Positions 795 to 41,722 of a stretch of DNA of 54,299 bases are shown piece after piece (position 1 is the stretch's first letter; each line of letters starts with the position of its first letter). The notes under the pieces were generated by a model. The model was not told the origin of the DNA, ran no database searches, and saw only the letters and a list, made by a program, of their open reading frames with translations. This DNA is from Thalassobius vesicularis. GTDB taxonomy: Bacteria; Pseudomonadota; Alphaproteobacteria; Rhodobacterales; Rhodobacteraceae. The DNA is taken from NCBI RefSeq assembly GCF_004799325.1, contig NZ_SSMD01000013.1, positions 1 through 54,299 on the forward strand. Direction: 5' to 3'. A program made the translations under genes and the position numbers.

Positions 795-3700
795 TGGACG
801 TGTTCAATCTCGATAAGTTTGTAATCGACCAATATAAAGCGTTTTCCCGCTCCTTTACGAAGATCAGGTCGCCTGAGATTTTTTCAAAGGTAAATGCGCT
901 TTATGACGACAAACGGTTCTGGCCAGAACCTCTGTTGCAGATCAATCCGCATTACGCATCCGGTGGATCTATCCGAGATTTCGTTAACGGGGGCATACTC
1001 GAACCTGAATGCGCAGATGTCTTTAAGGATAAATGGGGACCCGCTGACCAGAGTGACCCCAGTTTGAAGCTCCGCAAGCATCAGGAGCAAGCCATCAGCT
1101 TTGCCAAAGAGCGCCAGAGCTACGTGGTCACAACAGGAACAGGCTCGGGTAAGTCCCTCTGCTTTTTCATTCCGATTATCGATTCTGCCATACGTGCAAA
1201 AAAAGCAGGAGGTGGTGCGAAAACACGTGCCATTGTCATCTATCCGATGAACGCATTGGCAAACAGTCAGGCCAAGGAACTCGAAAGCTACCTCGGGTCT
1301 GCAACTGGTGGCCTTGTCACCTACGCCCGTTATACCGGGCAAGAAAGCAATGAAGATAGAGAACTCATCAAGGCAAACCCGCCAGACATTCTGTTGACCA
1401 ACTTCATGATGCTTGAACTTTTGATGACACGTCAGAGTGACCTGGATCGCAAGGTTTTGCAAAACTGCGAAGGTCTACAGTTCATCGTTCTGGACGAACT
1501 TCACACCTATCGAGGTAGGCAGGGTGCTGATGTTGCCATGCTCATGCGCCGTCTGCGCTCTCGCATTGGAGACCCCAAGAACCCTCCACTGTGCATTGGC
1601 ACATCGGCAACCATGGCCTCTGAGGGCGCACAGCACGAAAAGAACGAAGCTGTTGCACGCATCGCCAGTCAGATTTTTGGTGCTGACATCGGCCCTGATG
1701 CTGTTGTGACGGAAACACTCAAACGAGTGACGAACCCAGTAAACATTGGGGGTAAAGGCTTAACTGGACTTTCCGATGCGGTTCTCGCTGCCTCAAAGGG
1801 TGATGTCGCTCAAGGCCGCAAGAATTCTGATTTCTTCGATGATCCGCTGGCTATCTGGGTCGAAACACGGATTGGCCTCAAGAATGTTGAAACCAAGCCT
1901 GAAAGAGCAAAGCCAATCTCACTCGAAGAGGCTGCTAAGACCCTTTCGGCTGATTGCGGGCTGGATGAAGAACTCTGCGCTCAAGCCCTTCGAGAAGCGC
2001 TGATTGGATACTCTGTTCCGGAAAAAGACAGGGTTCAGGGCAGCAAGGAATACTCCCCACTTTTTGCGTTCAAACTGCACCAGTTCGTAGCGGGTGCAGG
2101 CAGGCTGTATATGACCCTGCGCCCTGAGGGTGAGCGGGATGTGACCTTCAGCGGGCAACTCTTTAATCCAAATAATGACGCTGAACGGCTCTACCCTACT
2201 CATTTCTGTCGGAACTGCGGCCAAGAGTTCCATCCAGTAACCCTTCGCAGCCATGACGGAACAGATGTCTTCGAGAAGCGTGAAATCGACGATATCCCCG
2301 TCGAGGGTGATGAAGATGATGACGGGGCGGATTGGGGTTTTCTGATGCCAGAACCCTCCGATCCGGATTTCAGCTTCTCCGGGAAAGACGAAGATTACCC
2401 AGATGCCTGGCTGGATGAGAAGCCAAACGGTGACAAACGCTTGAAAGCGACATACCGCAAAAAGCGGGCACAGCAATTCTCCGTTCTACCAGATGGGACC
2501 GCTCATGCCGGCTCAAGGCAAGCTTGGTTCTTACCTGGGAAATACCGCTTCTGCCCCTCTTGTCGGGATGTCAGCACCTCCACAGCGCGGGATATCAACA
2601 AACTGGCATCGCTGAGTGCTGAGAGCCGAAGCTCAGCTACGACAATCTTGCTTTCCACTGTCTTGCGTTGGATGAATTCACCAGAGTCCACGATTGACGA
2701 TTACTCACGCAAACTGCTCGCATTCACGGACAACCGCCAGGATGCTGCCCTACAGGCAGGTCACTTCAACGATTTCGTGTTTGTCACTATGCTTCGTGGG
2801 GCGATCATTAGCGCCCTGCGTTCAGCGCCAGATGGCTCGCTTGATGAAGCAAATATTGGACAAGAAGTTCAAAAAGCACTCGGGTTTCTTGCTTCGCCGG
2901 ATTATGCTCAACGTGCACCTGAGTGGCTACTGAACACGGGAGTTAAGGGTGAACGTCGCAACGAGGCTGAAGCCATCTTGCGGCAGAACCTACAGCATCT
3001 TTTCTGGATCGATCAGCGCAGAGGCTGGCGTTACACGAACCCGAACCTTGAGCAGCTTGGTTTGCTCTCTTCTCGCTACAAATATCTTGATGATATCTCG
3101 GCGGACACTGATGAATTCCGTAGTTCTCCCATCCTCAACAATGCCAGCTCAGCAGAGCGAAAAAAGGCTCTTAAGGCTCTTTACGACCATATGCGTAAAG
3201 GTCTGGCCGTTGATTGTGCCGCTCTCAACCGATTGAAGCTTGAAGAACTGGTCGGCAAAAACCACAACCTCATAAAGTCGCCCTGGAACATCGATGATGA
3301 TCGCATGGTGACCTCCACAATCTTCATGACTGAGCCGCCCAAGCGGAAGGAAATGAAGAACAAGGATGAAGACCGGCTTTTGCGCGGTAGCCCCACAAGC
3401 GCGATTGGTCGCAAGATGAGGGAGCTGACTTTCTCAGGTCGCCGCATCGAATTGAAGGAAGTTCCGGACGTTCTTGAAGGATTACTGAAGGCATCCGAGA
3501 ACTACGGATCAGTCGTAAAAGAGGCCGGCCCCTTCGGGATGGGGTGGCGACTTGCTGGCTCCACCGTCCGCTTTGCCCTTGATGAAACCCTCACTGACGC
3601 GGAACTGTCCAACACCTATTTTGTCGGCGTGTATCAGATGGTTGCCGAAATGCTCGACCGAGGTGGCCAGACACTCTTCGGATTCGAAGGGCGTGAGCAT

Positions 3701-35864: not shown

Positions 35865-36092
35865 TTAGAGACCCTTGGTCGCTGTTATGCGAACTTGGCG
35901 CACCATTCGTCGGCCTTCAGCCGCAGCGATCTCACGGTCGAGCGCCTCGATTGCCCGGTCGATCTCCGCGATGGAGCGATAGTCCACCATCTTGCCGTCA
36001 TAGCTGACGCGGGCCACGCCGGATGCCCGTTGTGCTGTCAGACTTTCCCGGCGGAGTTTCAGTGTCGCCAAATCCACCATATTGTCTGTCAT
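35865..36092 (-). CDS. gpW-like head-tail joining protein
   Basis: A 75-residue protein between large terminase and portal, as lambda W. It has two helices (LATLKLRRESLTAQR and IAEIDRAIEALDREIAAAEG) around a short strand hairpin (ARVSYDGKMVDYR), the gpW fold pattern. The ATG overlaps the end of the terminase gene by four bases. It joins the portal to the tail. Confidence 0.8.
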   Translation of the reverse strand: MTDNMVDLATLKLRRESLTAQRASGVARVSYDGKMVDYRSIAEIDRAIEALDREIAAAEGRRMVRQVRITATKGL

Positions 36093-38752
36093 CCCATATA
36101 TGTTGACCGCGCAACGCGGCGCACCTGTGCTTTGCGCGCGGATTGCGGGCCCCCGGCAGAGGCGGTGCCCTTGGCATCAGAGACCGCGAACTGTGCCGCC
36201 AATTCCTCCCACCGCGCATCCGACCAGCGGTCGGCCCCGAGGATCCAAGCGGCCGCACGGGCATAGACCCGGCAGTCGAGCGCTTCATTCCGTTCCCGCA
36301 GCTTCTGCCATTCGAGTTTGGCGAAGCCGCGCTTGTTCTTGACCGTAACCAGCTGCTCGGCCGTCAACTGCTTCAGCCATTCGGCATCGACCCAGCCCGG
36401 CAGATGGAGAAAGCCGGGAGGGAACTTCTCCTGATCCACCGGGCTGGTTTCCGGCGGATCGAGCCGCAGGAAACGATAGGTCTCAGCCTTGAAGGTGGAG
36501 GTGGCGATGGTCCAAAGCCGCGCCCCGCGGCGAAGACGCTTGCCCGCGATCGTCGCATCGACAAACGTCGGCCCGGTCACCGGGCTTGCCCGATTAAAGC
36601 CTTCAAGGCCTTTGACGGGTGCCACCTGTCCAAAGCCCACCTGCCGCGCCCAGGCATAGACCGCGGCTGTCTCGTAGCCCGTATCGATCGCAAGCCGCGC
36701 GATGGTCATCGGCGTGCCGCTGGCATGTTGCCAGGTGCGACCAAGCAGGTCAGAGAGCTTTCTCCAACAGGCCGGCTCCCCCGGACCGCCCCCGATGACG
36801 ACATGATCCACGAGCCAGCTTTCGAGCCCCCGCCCCCAGGCCCAGACATCAACTTCGATCCGGTCCTTCTGCACATCCGCCCCGGCCGTCAGGATGAGGC
36901 CAGCCTCGGGCACCGTGCCTGCCGGCCAGTTCTCCTTCAGCCCCTGCAGCCGCTGCCAGTCCGGCGCCTCGCCGCTTTCCATCCAGGTCTCGCCAAGCGA
37001 GGTATTGACGAAGGTTTTCATCGTTTCGTCCCCACCGGCGCGCGCGGACAGGAACCCCTTGGCCATGGCCTCGAGCCGCACCCAGGGCGAATAGATCTCG
37101 TTCAGATGGAACCCGGCCGTCCCGTTGAACGGTGCCTCCGCGATCCAGCGACCCTTGGAGATGGCAGCCCAGCGGGTCTCATCCTTCCAGGAGGCGTCGC
37201 AATCTGCGCAGTGGTAGCGCGCGGTTTCCGGGCGATGGCCGCCGTTCTCGTCCTTGTCCCATTTCACCTGCCCCCAGGTCAGGATTTGTTCGTGAGCACA
37301 CGCGGGGCACGGCACCCAAAACCGGCGCTGGTCACTTTCCTCGAATGCCGCCTCAATCCGGCTCGCCCCCTTGTTCGTCGGCGTCGAGACCAGCACGATC
37401 TTGCGGTTCCAGAAGGTCACCGTGCGCTTTTTGGCGAGGTTGACCGGATCGCCTTCAGCGCCTGCGCTGAACGGATAGCGGTCCACCTCATCACACAAGA
37501 GCAACCGGATCGGGCGGCTCGCCAACCCCGAGGGCGCATTGGCGCCCACAATGGTCAGATGCCCGCCCGGGAACCGTTTGTGCAGGATCTTGTTGTTGCC
37601 ATCCCGAGATTTCGGATTGGCGATCTTGTCCTGCAAACAGGGCGTGTCCCGCGCCATCGGCGAGAAGCGGTCCTTCGACCAGGTTTCCGCATCCCGCTCG
37701 GTCGGCATAACCACCATGATCGGTGCCGGATCCTGGTCGATATGGTAGCCAACAGCGTTGTTGAGCATTTCCGTATTGTGCGTCGGGATCATGGTACGCC
37801 CGGCCAGATACAAACGGTTCGGGCTGTCCACCTGAATGCAGCGCACAGGAACACTTTCGACCGGCTCGACGGCCACAATGCGGCGCCGCTCGGTTTCCGT
37901 CGTCCGCCGCCCCGCGCGCGAGACCTGACGCGCGCTCTTCCTTGCCAGTCGGAACACTGGCGTGTCGTCATAGATCATGAAGGAGAACCGCGTCGCGGGA
38001 TTACCAAGACGCCGTTCGCCATCGATTACAACCGTCGGCTGCTTGTCCACGGCGGTGAACTTGATGCCCAAAGAGGCAAGAAGCTCGCCGAAGCCCTCGG
38101 CCAGACGCGGATGAACCGTGATGAACTCGCAGCGGCCGCATTCAGCGATATAGCCGTCCGTGTCCATCAGACCCTGCAGGAGAGCCAGACGCTGATCAAT
38201 CGAGGCGCGCAGGTAGGCGGGCGGAATGTGTTTGCCGGTTTCTGGCGTCTTCCGATCTTTGGCCAGCCCCATCTCCCGCAAGCGCAGGCTAAACGGCTTT
38301 CCTTCTTCCAATATAGGATCAACGGGAAGGCCGTGCTTCCACTGCATAGCGAACTGCCGGCCACATTCCGCGCATTGCCCATTCCCATGGCGGCCCAGCA
38401 CATCCATGTCGTGGCCACGGCGACACATATTGTCGGGCCAAGGCAGCGTGGGCTTCAGCGTCAGGATATGCGGAACCCGTTTGTCCTTCGACTTGACCTC
38501 AACCTCCATGCCGCAGGCCCGGAGATGATCGGCGATTTCCAGATCATCCTGATGGCAGGTGATCTGCGAGCCGTAGCTGTGGCCGTCCCCCAGCCAGACG
38601 CCAAGGGCGTAAGGCGGGATTGGCAATGCCTGTTCGGGCAGTTGAAGCGGCCCAGCTACCGGGATGGCGTATCTGTTCCTTTTCTTCGCACCAAAGTAAT
38701 GGGCTGTCTCAGCAATCTCCTTCGTCGTCAGGACCGCCCGGTGGATCGTCAT
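36089..38752 (-). CDS. Large terminase subunit (lambda A family): C-terminal intein part plus C-extein
   Basis: This 887-codon frame carries, after the start ATG at 38752, the endonuclease and C-terminal splicing part of an intein (residues 1-326). It then carries the rest of the terminase (561 residues): TEMLNN continuing Walker A, Walker B LLLCDEVDR, zinc-like CPAC...CADC, and the nuclease segment AGADVQKDRIEVDVWAW. The intein part has DOD endonuclease motifs LGVWLGDG (near 50-57) and LLQGLMDTDGY (191-201), a CRRGH...CAEC zinc-like cluster, and the splice block RCIQVDSPNRLYLAG...IPTHN before T327. The frame is +1 relative to the upstream terminase frame. The ATG has GAGG about 10 bases upstream, so independent translation is conceivable. 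Confidence 0.88.
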   Translation of the reverse strand: MTIHRAVLTTKEIAETAHYFGAKKRNRYAIPVAGPLQLPEQALPIPPYALGVWLGDGHSYGSQITCHQDDLEIADHLRACGMEVEVKSKDKRVPHILTLKPTLPWPDNMCRRGHDMDVLGRHGNGQCAECGRQFAMQWKHGLPVDPILEEGKPFSLRLREMGLAKDRKTPETGKHIPPAYLRASIDQRLALLQGLMDTDGYIAECGRCEFITVHPRLAEGFGELLASLGIKFTAVDKQPTVVIDGERRLGNPATRFSFMIYDDTPVFRLARKSARQVSRAGRRTTETERRRIVAVEPVESVPVRCIQVDSPNRLYLAGRTMIPTHNTEMLNNAVGYHIDQDPAPIMVVMPTERDAETWSKDRFSPMARDTPCLQDKIANPKSRDGNNKILHKRFPGGHLTIVGANAPSGLASRPIRLLLCDEVDRYPFSAGAEGDPVNLAKKRTVTFWNRKIVLVSTPTNKGASRIEAAFEESDQRRFWVPCPACAHEQILTWGQVKWDKDENGGHRPETARYHCADCDASWKDETRWAAISKGRWIAEAPFNGTAGFHLNEIYSPWVRLEAMAKGFLSARAGGDETMKTFVNTSLGETWMESGEAPDWQRLQGLKENWPAGTVPEAGLILTAGADVQKDRIEVDVWAWGRGLESWLVDHVVIGGGPGEPACWRKLSDLLGRTWQHASGTPMTIARLAIDTGYETAAVYAWARQVGFGQVAPVKGLEGFNRASPVTGPTFVDATIAGKRLRRGARLWTIATSTFKAETYRFLRLDPPETSPVDQEKFPPGFLHLPGWVDAEWLKQLTAEQLVTVKNKRGFAKLEWQKLRERNEALDCRVYARAAAWILGADRWSDARWEELAAQFAVSDAKGTASAGGPQSARKAQVRRVARSTYMG

Positions 38753-39008
38753 GGAACAGGTCCCTCATCGCGTCCTGCGCGCGCACTGGCGTATCGCTGT
38801 CCACCGCCCACAGGTGTTCGGCATCGGCGATGATCGAGCTTCCGTCCGAAAACCGCACACGGTAGCAGCGCCGGTTGCGCATCACATCCGTGGCGCCAGT
38901 GACCCGGCAAGGCGCGCCGGTTTCATCAAAAAGAATGTCGCCGACCTGCACATCGCCCATCGTGGTCCAGCCGGTCGGCGTAACCAGCGGCGTATCCAGC
39001 GCCAGGGC
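37775..39008 (-). other. Class 3-type intein with LAGLIDADG endonuclease in terminase Walker A, broken into two frames
   Basis: Boundaries are set by the Walker A host site GK^T: first intein residue Ala (39008), last Asn (37775-37777), next extein residue Thr. The element is 1,234 bases, one more than a multiple of three. Class 3 inteins lack an N-terminal Cys and use a WCT set. Here Trp follows block B His (DAEHLW), Cys is in block F (RCIQVD), and Thr precedes the final His-Asn (IPTHN). The frames switch in the 38709-38752 overlap, after block B. Removing one C from the CC before the ATG at 38752 would restore one frame reading DLFMTIHRAV. Confidence 0.85.
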
Positions 39009-39293
39009 TTTGCCCACCTGTGAACTGGACATGATCACGACAGTTTCGGTGGCGGCATCCGAGACCGCCTCCATGATCCCACGTTGGTATTCGGCGCGGC
39101 TCGTGCGCCACTGACCAGGCTCGGCGCTGGCTTCAGAACTCAGTCGCCGGTTCTGATCGGCCCAATCGCTGATCGTCAGGTCCGGCGGCGGTTTCAGCAC
39201 GGCCAGCGCTTTTGCCACCGTCCGCTTCAGGATCGGCGAGCCCGTCAATCTCAGGATCGGTTTCGAATTCAATGTCTGGCTGCGCGAGATCAT
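38709..39293 (-). CDS. Large terminase subunit: N-extein plus N-terminal intein part
   Basis: A 194-codon frame. Residues 1-95 are the terminase N-terminus with its adenine-binding and Walker A region (VVIMSSSQVGK). From A96 the intein begins (ALALDTPLVTPTGWTTMGDV). Block B is DAEHLWAVDS. The frame ends at a TGA (38709-38711), 44 bases beyond the ATG of the C-part. ATG 39293 has a GAGG ribosome site six bases upstream; a GTG at 39218 is an alternative nearer the usual terminase start. The gene overlaps the small subunit by 161 bases if the first start is used. Removing the intein would give a terminase of about 656 residues, close to lambda gpA (641). Confidence 0.86.
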   Translation of the reverse strand: MISRSQTLNSKPILRLTGSPILKRTVAKALAVLKPPPDLTISDWADQNRRLSSEASAEPGQWRTSRAEYQRGIMEAVSDAATETVVIMSSSQVGKALALDTPLVTPTGWTTMGDVQVGDILFDETGAPCRVTGATDVMRNRRCYRVRFSDGSSIIADAEHLWAVDSDTPVRAQDAMRDLFHDDPPGGPDDEGDC

Positions 39294-40329: not shown

Positions 40330-41574
40330 TTAGCCCGCGTCAGGCTTTGTACCCGCCCTGTCATTCAGATCATCGAAACTCTGTCCGCTGCTCTTAAGGA
40401 CAGCCTGTTGCCCGGTGAATTTCTGCCAGCGCTGGACGGCGACATCAACGTAGGCGGGGTTCAGTTCGATGCCATAGCAAACGCGGCCAGTGGTCTCGGC
40501 CGCGATCAATGTCGTGCCAGATCCCATGAAAGGCTCATAGACAGCCTGACCCGGGCTCGAATTATTCAGGATAGGACGGCGCATACATTCGACCGGCTTT
40601 TGGGTGCCATGCACCGTCTTTGCGTCCTGGTCCTTGTTCGGGATATGCCACAATGTCGTCTGCTTGCGATCCCCGGCCCAATGACCCTTGCCGGATTTGC
40701 GCACGGCGTACCAGGCCGGTTCATGCTGCCAGTGATAATCGCCCCGGCTCAGAACGAGCCGCTCCTTGGCCCAGATGATCTGCGACCGGATGGTGAAGCC
40801 CGCGACCTCGAGACTTTCGGCGACCGTCGCCGCGTGCAACGCACCGTGCCAGACATATGCGACATCCCCGGGAAACAGCGCCCAGGCTTCGCGCCAGTCA
40901 GCTCGGTCATCGTTCAGCACCTTGCCGGTGCGCTTGGTCTTGGCCGCACCTGCCTGGTTTCGCCAGCTGGGATCATATTCCACACCGTATGGAGGATCTG
41001 TGACCATCAGCAACGGCTTCACTGTGCCGAGCAAGCGCTCGACATCCGTAGCAACGGTGCTGTCGCCACAGAGCAGCCGATGGTTGCCCAAGATCCAGAG
41101 ATCGCCGGGACGGCTGATGGGCTCCTCCGGGGTTTCCGGGATCTCGTCTTCGCCCTCCTGCGGACCGGTGCCCGCATCAAGGCTCGACATCAGCGCGTTC
41201 AGTTCGTCCTCGGTGAAGCCGGTCAGCCCAAGGTCAAAATCCGCCTCCAGCAGGTCCGCCAGTTCGAGGTTCAGCAAGTCCGTGTCCCATTCGGCATTCT
41301 CGCTGGATCGATTGTCCATGATCCGGAACGCCCGCGCCTGATTGGCGGTCAGCCCTTTGGCGACATGCACCGGCGCGGTTTTGAAACCGAGCTTGCGAGC
41401 TGCTTCCAGCCGCGTGTGCCCGGCCAGCACGACCATCGCCTCATCCACCACGATGGGCTGACGCCACCCGAATTCCTGGATTGACGCTGCGACCGTCGCC
41501 ACAGCCTCTGCGTTGTTCCGCGGGTTGCGCGCATAGGGAATGATCTGCTCGAGCGGCAGGTCGACAACGTCCAT
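40330..41574 (-). CDS. ParB-domain DNA methyltransferase fusion (N6A/N4C, beta-class motif order)
   Basis: A 414-residue protein starting at MDVVDLPLEQIIPYARNPRN. The N-terminal ParB/Srx-like domain has PYARNPRNN, WRQPIVVD, AGHTRLEAARKLG. The methyltransferase domain has motif IV DPPYG near residues 190-194 and motif I FMGSGTT near 348-354, that is, the beta order of CcrM-like enzymes. By family it methylates adenine N6 or cytosine N4; phage versions protect their DNA or regulate late packaging. A longer frame back to 41646 exists, but its extra residues come from the repeat cluster upstream (HFVSRADPVSFR), so I place the start at 41574, with GAGG upstream. Confidence 0.85.
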   Translation of the reverse strand: MDVVDLPLEQIIPYARNPRNNAEAVATVAASIQEFGWRQPIVVDEAMVVLAGHTRLEAARKLGFKTAPVHVAKGLTANQARAFRIMDNRSSENAEWDTDLLNLELADLLEADFDLGLTGFTEDELNALMSSLDAGTGPQEGEDEIPETPEEPISRPGDLWILGNHRLLCGDSTVATDVERLLGTVKPLLMVTDPPYGVEYDPSWRNQAGAAKTKRTGKVLNDDRADWREAWALFPGDVAYVWHGALHAATVAESLEVAGFTIRSQIIWAKERLVLSRGDYHWQHEPAWYAVRKSGKGHWAGDRKQTTLWHIPNKDQDAKTVHGTQKPVECMRRPILNNSSPGQAVYEPFMGSGTTLIAAETTGRVCYGIELNPAYVDVAVQRWQKFTGQQAVLKSSGQSFDDLNDRAGTKPDAG

Positions 41575-41596
41575 CACAATGTCCTCGAATTTGGCC

Positions 41597-41722
41597 CGAA
41601 ACGAAACGGGGTCAGCGCGCGAAACGAAATGGGTCAAAGGGGCCATTTCGTTTCAAAAGGGTTTTAGGGACCGTCAGGCCCTTGTTTTGTTACGTCTGAA
41701 CTCAAAGCGAAACGAAACGGGT
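41597..41722. repeat. Cluster of CGAAACGAAAYGGG repeats upstream of the ParB-methyltransferase gene
   Basis: Three direct copies (41597-41611, 41620-41635, 41708-41722) and one inverted copy (41643-41654, read as CCATTTCGTTTC) of CGAAACGAAAYGGG lie in 125 bases just upstream of the likely start of the methyltransferase gene. The spacing and conservation suggest binding sites for a regulator, possibly the ParB domain protein itself. The first two copies are 23 bases apart. Confidence 0.65.

Follow-up and report, generated by a model that had tools for sequence, protein, structure and literature searches.

How a large terminase can be made from a gene that is interrupted in its Walker A motif is the question raised by a contig of Thalassobius vesicularis (assembly GCF_004799325.1, contig NZ_SSMD01000013.1, positions 1-54,299). 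This whole stretch of 54,299 nucleotides is called the window here, and all of its features given below with coordinates lie on the minus strand. The terminase gene carries an intein insert of 1,234 bases at 37775-39008, and the two halves of this intein are read in different frames. A preliminary description of the locus had left two options, a natural split intein or a gene inactivated by one extra C. From comparison with related sequences, we conclude that the terminase is probably stitched from two proteins rather than broken by mutation. We consider it very likely that the insert is a naturally split class 3 intein, that the terminase is made through trans-splicing of its halves, and that the C-half still contains a LAGLIDADG endonuclease.

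The N-half gene (38709-39293, 194 amino acids) encodes the terminase N-extein followed by the N-terminal intein part, IntN. Its open reading frame (ORF) gives an N-extein of 95 codons (39009-39293) ending in SSSQVGK, and Pfam GpA_ATPase matches residues 56-99 of the N-half (E-value 7.7e-9). The 99 codons of IntN (38712-39008), assigned by ORF, PDB match and motif patterns, continue with ALALDTP, pass through EHLWAVDSD and run up to a TGA at 38709-38711; they hold Ala1 and the block B residue Trp67 (38808-38810). The C-half gene (36089-38752, 887 amino acids; Pfam LAGLIDADG_3, GpA_ATPase and GpA_nuclease) starts with an ATG at 38750-38752, overlaps the N-half gene by 44 bases (38709-38752) and is read in the +1 frame relative to it. 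A Shine-Dalgarno-like purine hexamer, GAGGGA, is located at 38761-38766, which is -14 to -9 from the ATG. Downstream follow the endonuclease-bearing part (residues about 10-289, 37886-38725), the C-terminal intein part IntC (residues 290-326, 37775-37885) with the block F residue Cys305 and a terminal THN, and the C-extein including the stop codon (36089-37774), whose +1 residue is Thr and which matches GpA_ATPase (E-value 6.5e-78) and GpA_nuclease (E-value 1.7e-94). The intein part of the C-half ends VRCIQVDSPNRLYLAGRTMIPTHN, and the terminase then resumes with TEMLNN. The intein thus spans from Ala1 at 39008 to the last Asn at 37775 within the host motif SSSQVGK^TE. The intein-free alleles L002, L185 and L171 read GK-T without a break exactly at this insertion point. 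By this motif and by the domains PF05876 and PF20454, the host protein is a large terminase of the lambda gpA type. The interruption of Walker A, the two frames, the overlap, the TGA at 38709, the ATG at 38752 and the GAGG upstream of it are all reproduced as first described.

The splice residues assign the intein to a class. According to an excerpt of PMC7891396, class 3 inteins carry a triad of Trp, Cys and Thr at positions B:12, F:4 and G:5. The hallmarks found here are Ala1, Trp67 in IntN, Cys305 in the C-half and the Thr of THN. With a non-nucleophilic residue at position 1 and the WCT triad, the intein belongs by its sequence to class 3. This assignment, like the survey of relatives, goes beyond the preliminary description. 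The top PDB match of the N-half is the class 3 DnaB mini-intein 6BS8, to whose residues 1-76 the N-half residues 96-171 align (E-value 6.8e-24). C-half residues 289-326 align to residues 102-139 of 6BS8 (E-value 1.6e-7), and 6RIX matches slightly better there. The two halves jointly span 6BS8 except for 25 middle residues, which correspond to the position of the endonuclease. This intein, M. smegmatis DnaBi1, trans-splices when it is cut between residues 94 and 95 (PMC10559147, in excerpt). The break in the window is located after block B, as had been proposed, and before block F; natural split inteins are divided between motifs B and F (PMC4031507, in excerpt).

The endonuclease noted at first sight is supported by several lines of evidence. 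LAGLIDADG motif 1 (LGVWLGDG) lies at 38582-38605 and motif 2 (LLQGLMDTDG) at 38153-38182, and Pfam PF14528 matches the domain (E-value 2.7e-6). The structure model of the C-half has a mean predicted local distance difference test score (pLDDT) of 86, and its best Foldseek match is PI-SceI (1vde; E-value 7.7e-10, template-modelling score by query 0.43). By motifs and modelled fold, the domain fits a LAGLIDADG homing endonuclease. When the C-half is modelled alone, the endonuclease is confident and the IntC tail is weak (residues 304-310 and 316-326 below pLDDT 50). This is expected if the C-half awaits its partner half. In the model of the cis relative L087 (pLDDT 91), the motif-equivalent split position is a loop that joins two strands at about residues 71-80 and is less confident (block mean 75). 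A Cys-rich stretch of the window, C..GH...C..C (38363-38425, C-half residues 110-130), is located after LAGLIDADG motif 1 and before motif 2 and possibly forms a zinc site; its Cys and His residues also occur in the cis relatives L030 and L033.

Is the frame break peculiar to this contig? Loci were gathered from two scans of viral sequences, in which the C-half or its alignment served as query, from one genome scan, from one family scan and from the organism's own genome. One viral scan contributes the best 80 of 585 relatives (at least 600 stretches) and an N-half scan the best 80 of 188; a close single-frame relative could lie beyond these best-80 lists, and the first viral scan is listed in full. 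Of 150 matching loci, 139 contain both halves, 10 the C part alone and 1 the N part alone. The +1 offset is found in all 38 both-half loci at 73-100% identity. These include L021, the same organism's record (100% identical), L084, apparently the L076 contig, and L014, which is cut in the overlap. The more distant both-half loci are in one frame in 100 of 101 cases, with L111 as the sole exception. The preliminary description had proposed a search of other phages and had held that close relatives whose intein is read in one frame would speak against a natural split. In the set of loci recovered here with at least 73% identity, the split is conserved and no single-frame copy occurs.

From the N-half scan came two further split loci, L166 and L169, as well as 56 loci that have no C-half match. 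Wider genome scans (394, 390 and 385 genomes, own included) returned, besides the own genome, matches in G005 (L084), G246 (L085) and G598 (L226), which are split, and in G110 (L086), which is distant and single-frame. In the phages collection, no cultured phage with this intein was found; the 464 records that matched there are all below 60% identity. Five C-half fragments above 70% identity (L029, L031, L032, L038 and L042) do not reach the junction and are untypable. Apart from L069 (70.6% over 34 residues), no both-half relative was found at 54-73% C-half identity. Of the one-frame relatives, L069 is closest to the split lineage. Its terminase is related and carries, at 3114-3611 and in the same position, a single-frame, endonuclease-free class 3 mini-intein of 166 amino acids.

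Four of the 100 single-frame loci were flagged for stop codons. In L087, L088 and L131 the stops precede the ORF starts, and these loci were rejected as additional splits. The class 3 intein of L129 (3249-4271) has in-frame stops at two positions that are Trp in relatives, which suggests that this phage may read a stop codon as Trp. The exception L111 contains another class 3 intein (1943-3194) with its halves in different frames and a long gap. A second independent split is unsupported there, as L111 closely matches nothing but its own contig (L227) and the other 23 loci are 29-54% identical over the best segment; mutation, an error or a second split could each account for this break.

Junctions were compared in 38 contigs including the window, which represent 24 distinct haplotypes; L014, L021, L084 and L226 were omitted as cut or duplicate, some IMG contigs probably repeat genomes under NCBI names, and it is coincidence that this set and the close loci both number 38. 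In all 38 contigs and 24 haplotypes the halves occupy separate ORFs, divided between blocks B and F. Ala1 is present in 38 of 38 rows. The block B Trp pattern is found in 37 of 38, and L071, which fails it, still has the Trp. For the C-half, residues were counted over 35 rows, since L057, L085 and L166 are cut or deleted there. THN, Thr+1, the terminase CDEVDR motif and both LAGLIDADG motifs are kept in 35 of 35, and the block F Cys pattern in 34 of 35, where L169 fails the pattern yet has the Cys.

All parts of both genes are under selection. We calculated ratios of nonsynonymous to synonymous substitution rates (dN/dS) as pairwise medians over 19 representatives, with 144 to 160 of 171 pairs per part. 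Pairs with dS outside 0.05-2, stops or cut ends were omitted, and upstream also pairs with L078. Median dN/dS is 0.110 for the N-extein (last 80 codons), 0.097 for IntN (first 65 codons), 0.099 for the endonuclease (codons 20-285), 0.045 for IntC and 0.091 for the C-extein (first 300 codons). By these values, exteins, both intein halves and endonuclease are all under purifying selection. The comparison of loci shows the two-frame layout to be conserved.

This evidence decides the alternative with which the locus was first presented. An isolated frameshift mutation or an assembly error, such as one extra C, would leave a broken gene, and the distant relative L111 does show an isolated break. 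For the split lineage, such an accident is hardly conceivable. All 38 close loci, which come from many separate assemblies, have the same break, purifying selection acts on every part, and the phase of base changes differs on either side of the C-half start codon. With the splicing, endonuclease and ATPase residues kept in nearly every row as well, the natural split is the favoured one of the two original options.

How the second protein is started can be followed at the junction, where base 0 denotes the first base of the C-half start codon. All 24 haplotypes have a start codon at base 0, 22 as ATG and 2 as TTG, and bases -14 to -9 are all purine in 24 of 24. Mean anti-Shine-Dalgarno pairing is -6.9 kcal/mol, compared to -3.8 when the N-half is recoded synonymously. 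At the place of the start codon, the cis relatives L030 and L033 have no Met but Lys and Gly. Of 22 junction haplotypes, 19 have the overlap of 44 bases; L077, L022 and L079, one clade with a moved N-frame stop, have overlaps of 167, 167 and 203.

Base changes, reconstructed by parsimony on 28 distinct rows of 36, reveal where the C frame becomes constrained. Upstream (-60 to -16), C-codon positions 1, 2 and 3 have 23, 72 and 21 changes, so that 72 of 116 fall on N-codon position 3. The corresponding counts are 5, 13 and 10 for bases -15 to -1, and 10, 19 and 30 within the overlap (0 to 40). Downstream (44 to 139) they are 48, 36 and 153, with 153 of 237 at position 3. The start codon has 1 change at its first base and 0 at the other two. 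N-codon third positions upstream have 4.8 changes on average, compared to 1 change at -11 and none at the third position that falls inside the start codon. Just one of the 15 third positions upstream is as low, and it belongs to a Trp codon; -14, mostly in a Met codon, also has 1 change. For pairs of the 38, the nonsynonymous share upstream is 0.27 for the N frame (-61 to -17) and 0.90 for the C frame (-60 to -16). From the hexamer to the start (-9 to -1; three codons, a small sample), the N frame has a share of 0.38 and the C frame one of 0.74. Within the overlap, the share is 0.37 for the C frame and 0.81 for the N frame. Selection on the C frame therefore appears to begin at or very near the start codon, and an independent translation start of the C-half is strongly suggested by these patterns.

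Several observations pull in the other direction. Recodings pair with the anti-Shine-Dalgarno sequence as well as the natural sequence in a median of 10% of cases (0.2-62% by haplotype), and some start codon at base 0 survives in 57% of recoding draws on average. No single haplotype is decisive, and the case hence rests on all 24 together, which are related. The absence of change inside the start codon is not special alone, because the C frame is constrained in the overlap and quiet third positions are common. A slip context RRG_G, scored by an ad hoc re-pairing rule with the third position free, is present at -13 in 22 of 22 haplotypes, coinciding with the Shine-Dalgarno-like site, and its codon in the window is the rare AGG (4% of Arg). 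Decay occurs in L057, where an in-frame deletion has removed most of the C-half and joined the endonuclease to the terminase C-end (from 949), and in L029:3-830, which is outside the 38 rows and has THK for THN. Finally, the own genome holds a second, intein-free large terminase, L002 (G000:C12:20018-21673).

The slip context would suit the main rival, which is programmed +1 frameshifting near the overlap. It would yield one in-line precursor that splices in cis, with the internal start being incidental or an extra source of endonuclease. We regard this as unlikely. The purines of the slip context are accounted for by the Shine-Dalgarno-like site with which it overlaps, and L078, outside the 22-haplotype set, has GGA_GAC at -13 and fails the rule. 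The three codons after -13 are without C-frame constraint, as given by the small-sample share of 0.74 above. Slipping also requires no start codon at base 0, yet one is kept in 24 of 24. The next commonest slip candidate, at +20, is found in just 14 of 22 haplotypes, and the N-frame stop has moved in the clade of L022, L077 and L079. In prfB, the slip takes place at a stop codon. A comparable slip at the N-frame TGA, which AAGGAG directly precedes, was rejected, as L022, L077 and L079 do not have that TGA.

The second terminase, in turn, would be used if the split is real and the halves do not splice. The C-half would then serve as homing endonuclease only, and packaging would be performed by another terminase such as L002. 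This is very improbable in our view. Both exteins are under purifying selection (0.110 and 0.091), and IntC, which would then be useless, is the most constrained part of all (0.045). Moreover, Thalassovita autumnalis has two copies, L072 and L073, and both are split.

Trans-splicing of a naturally split intein can account for the conserved layout as follows. One message would give two proteins, N-extein with IntN and endonuclease with IntC and C-extein, the second started independently at the internal ATG, which lies inside the terminal stretch of the first gene. After association of the halves, Cys305 of IntC would attack the bond between N-extein and IntN. The acyl group would be passed to Thr+1, and cyclisation of Asn would release the intein. 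The product would be a continuous terminase with Walker A (GK-T) intact. We infer association of the halves, trans-splicing and homing from the residues and by analogy to known class 3 inteins.

The endonuclease raises the question whether the split form is still mobile. L002 is 88% identical over the aligned C part and would, judged from its sequence, be an available homing target. Over 300 residues, the window terminase and the intein-free L185 share 98.7% identity. We placed 33 split, 54 intein-free and 3 cis rows of 112 on a C-extein tree, omitting 22 others (cis or untyped). On this tree, the split and the free state must have been exchanged at least 11 times, 3 of these forced by well supported branches; 40 of 71 inner branches are weak. 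The states are clustered, as 0 of 500 shuffles were as low (shuffle mean 26). Such a patchy pattern among similar terminases fits homing, or repeated loss, and the split form may still move. We lean, with some reserve, towards a mobile split intein whose two-gene, endonuclease-bearing form homes as such. Each invasion would turn a one-gene terminase into an obligate two-protein, trans-spliced one, and the split would persist across these alphaproteobacterial phages without return to one frame.

The surroundings of the terminase genes fit a lambda-like prophage, with portal, ClpP-like protease, tape measure and tail genes close by among ten ORFs scanned. Near the terminase genes, an ORF at 40330-41646 combines a ParB N-terminal domain with a DNA methylase domain.

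The loci compared here form a split class 3 lineage whose endonuclease is built in and for which 24 distinct junctions are available. Such an arrangement may represent an intermediate in the origin of split inteins, with a frame break beside the endonuclease and an internal start, before loss of the endonuclease. If trans-splicing is correct, this would be a split class 3 pair with both reacting side chains on the C-half, and a viral packaging motor would depend on the joining of two proteins. Surveys that seek whole inteins in single proteins could miss such cases. In titles and abstract openings of open-licence literature, among the matches listed, neither a split intein with built-in endonuclease nor this terminase intein is described, which is weak evidence of absence.

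Excerpts of PMC7891396 describe all 1,701 class 3 inteins in the protein database as cis and present AceL NrdHF (Hoffmann et al.), from a metagenome, as the first class 3 intein reported to be naturally split. The intein of the window resembles it in class, in Ala1, in its phage-like contig, in the split at the endonuclease insertion point and in IntN length, with 98 amino acids in AceL NrdHF and 99 here. As far as the same excerpts go, AceL NrdHF differs by a 48-amino-acid mini IntC, endonuclease-free halves, a separate GIY-YIG gene between them and the triad MCT, whereas here we find WCT, overlapping genes and a LAGLIDADG domain inside the C-half. DnaBi1 (6BS8), which ranks first among the PDB matches of the N-half and second among those of the C-half, is naturally one-piece, endonuclease-free and located in DnaB, and was split artificially (PMC10559147, in excerpt). 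The cis class 3 TerL inteins with LAGLIDADG, such as L087, L088 and L030, share the type of host protein, the splice motifs and the endonuclease architecture, and these three also the insertion after a GK. They differ by their single reading frame, and their identity over the full C part is about 50% or lower. AceL TerL belongs to class 1, has an atypical split near its N-end and is not known to contain an endonuclease domain. The cyanobacterial split DnaE inteins are class 1 mini-inteins that are not known to contain an endonuclease, and their genes are far apart. Like the intein described here, AceL TerL, named in an excerpt of PMC7891396, is a natural split intein in a phage large terminase, and the DnaE inteins combine two genes with trans-splicing (PMC4031507, in excerpt), as we propose for the terminase of the window.

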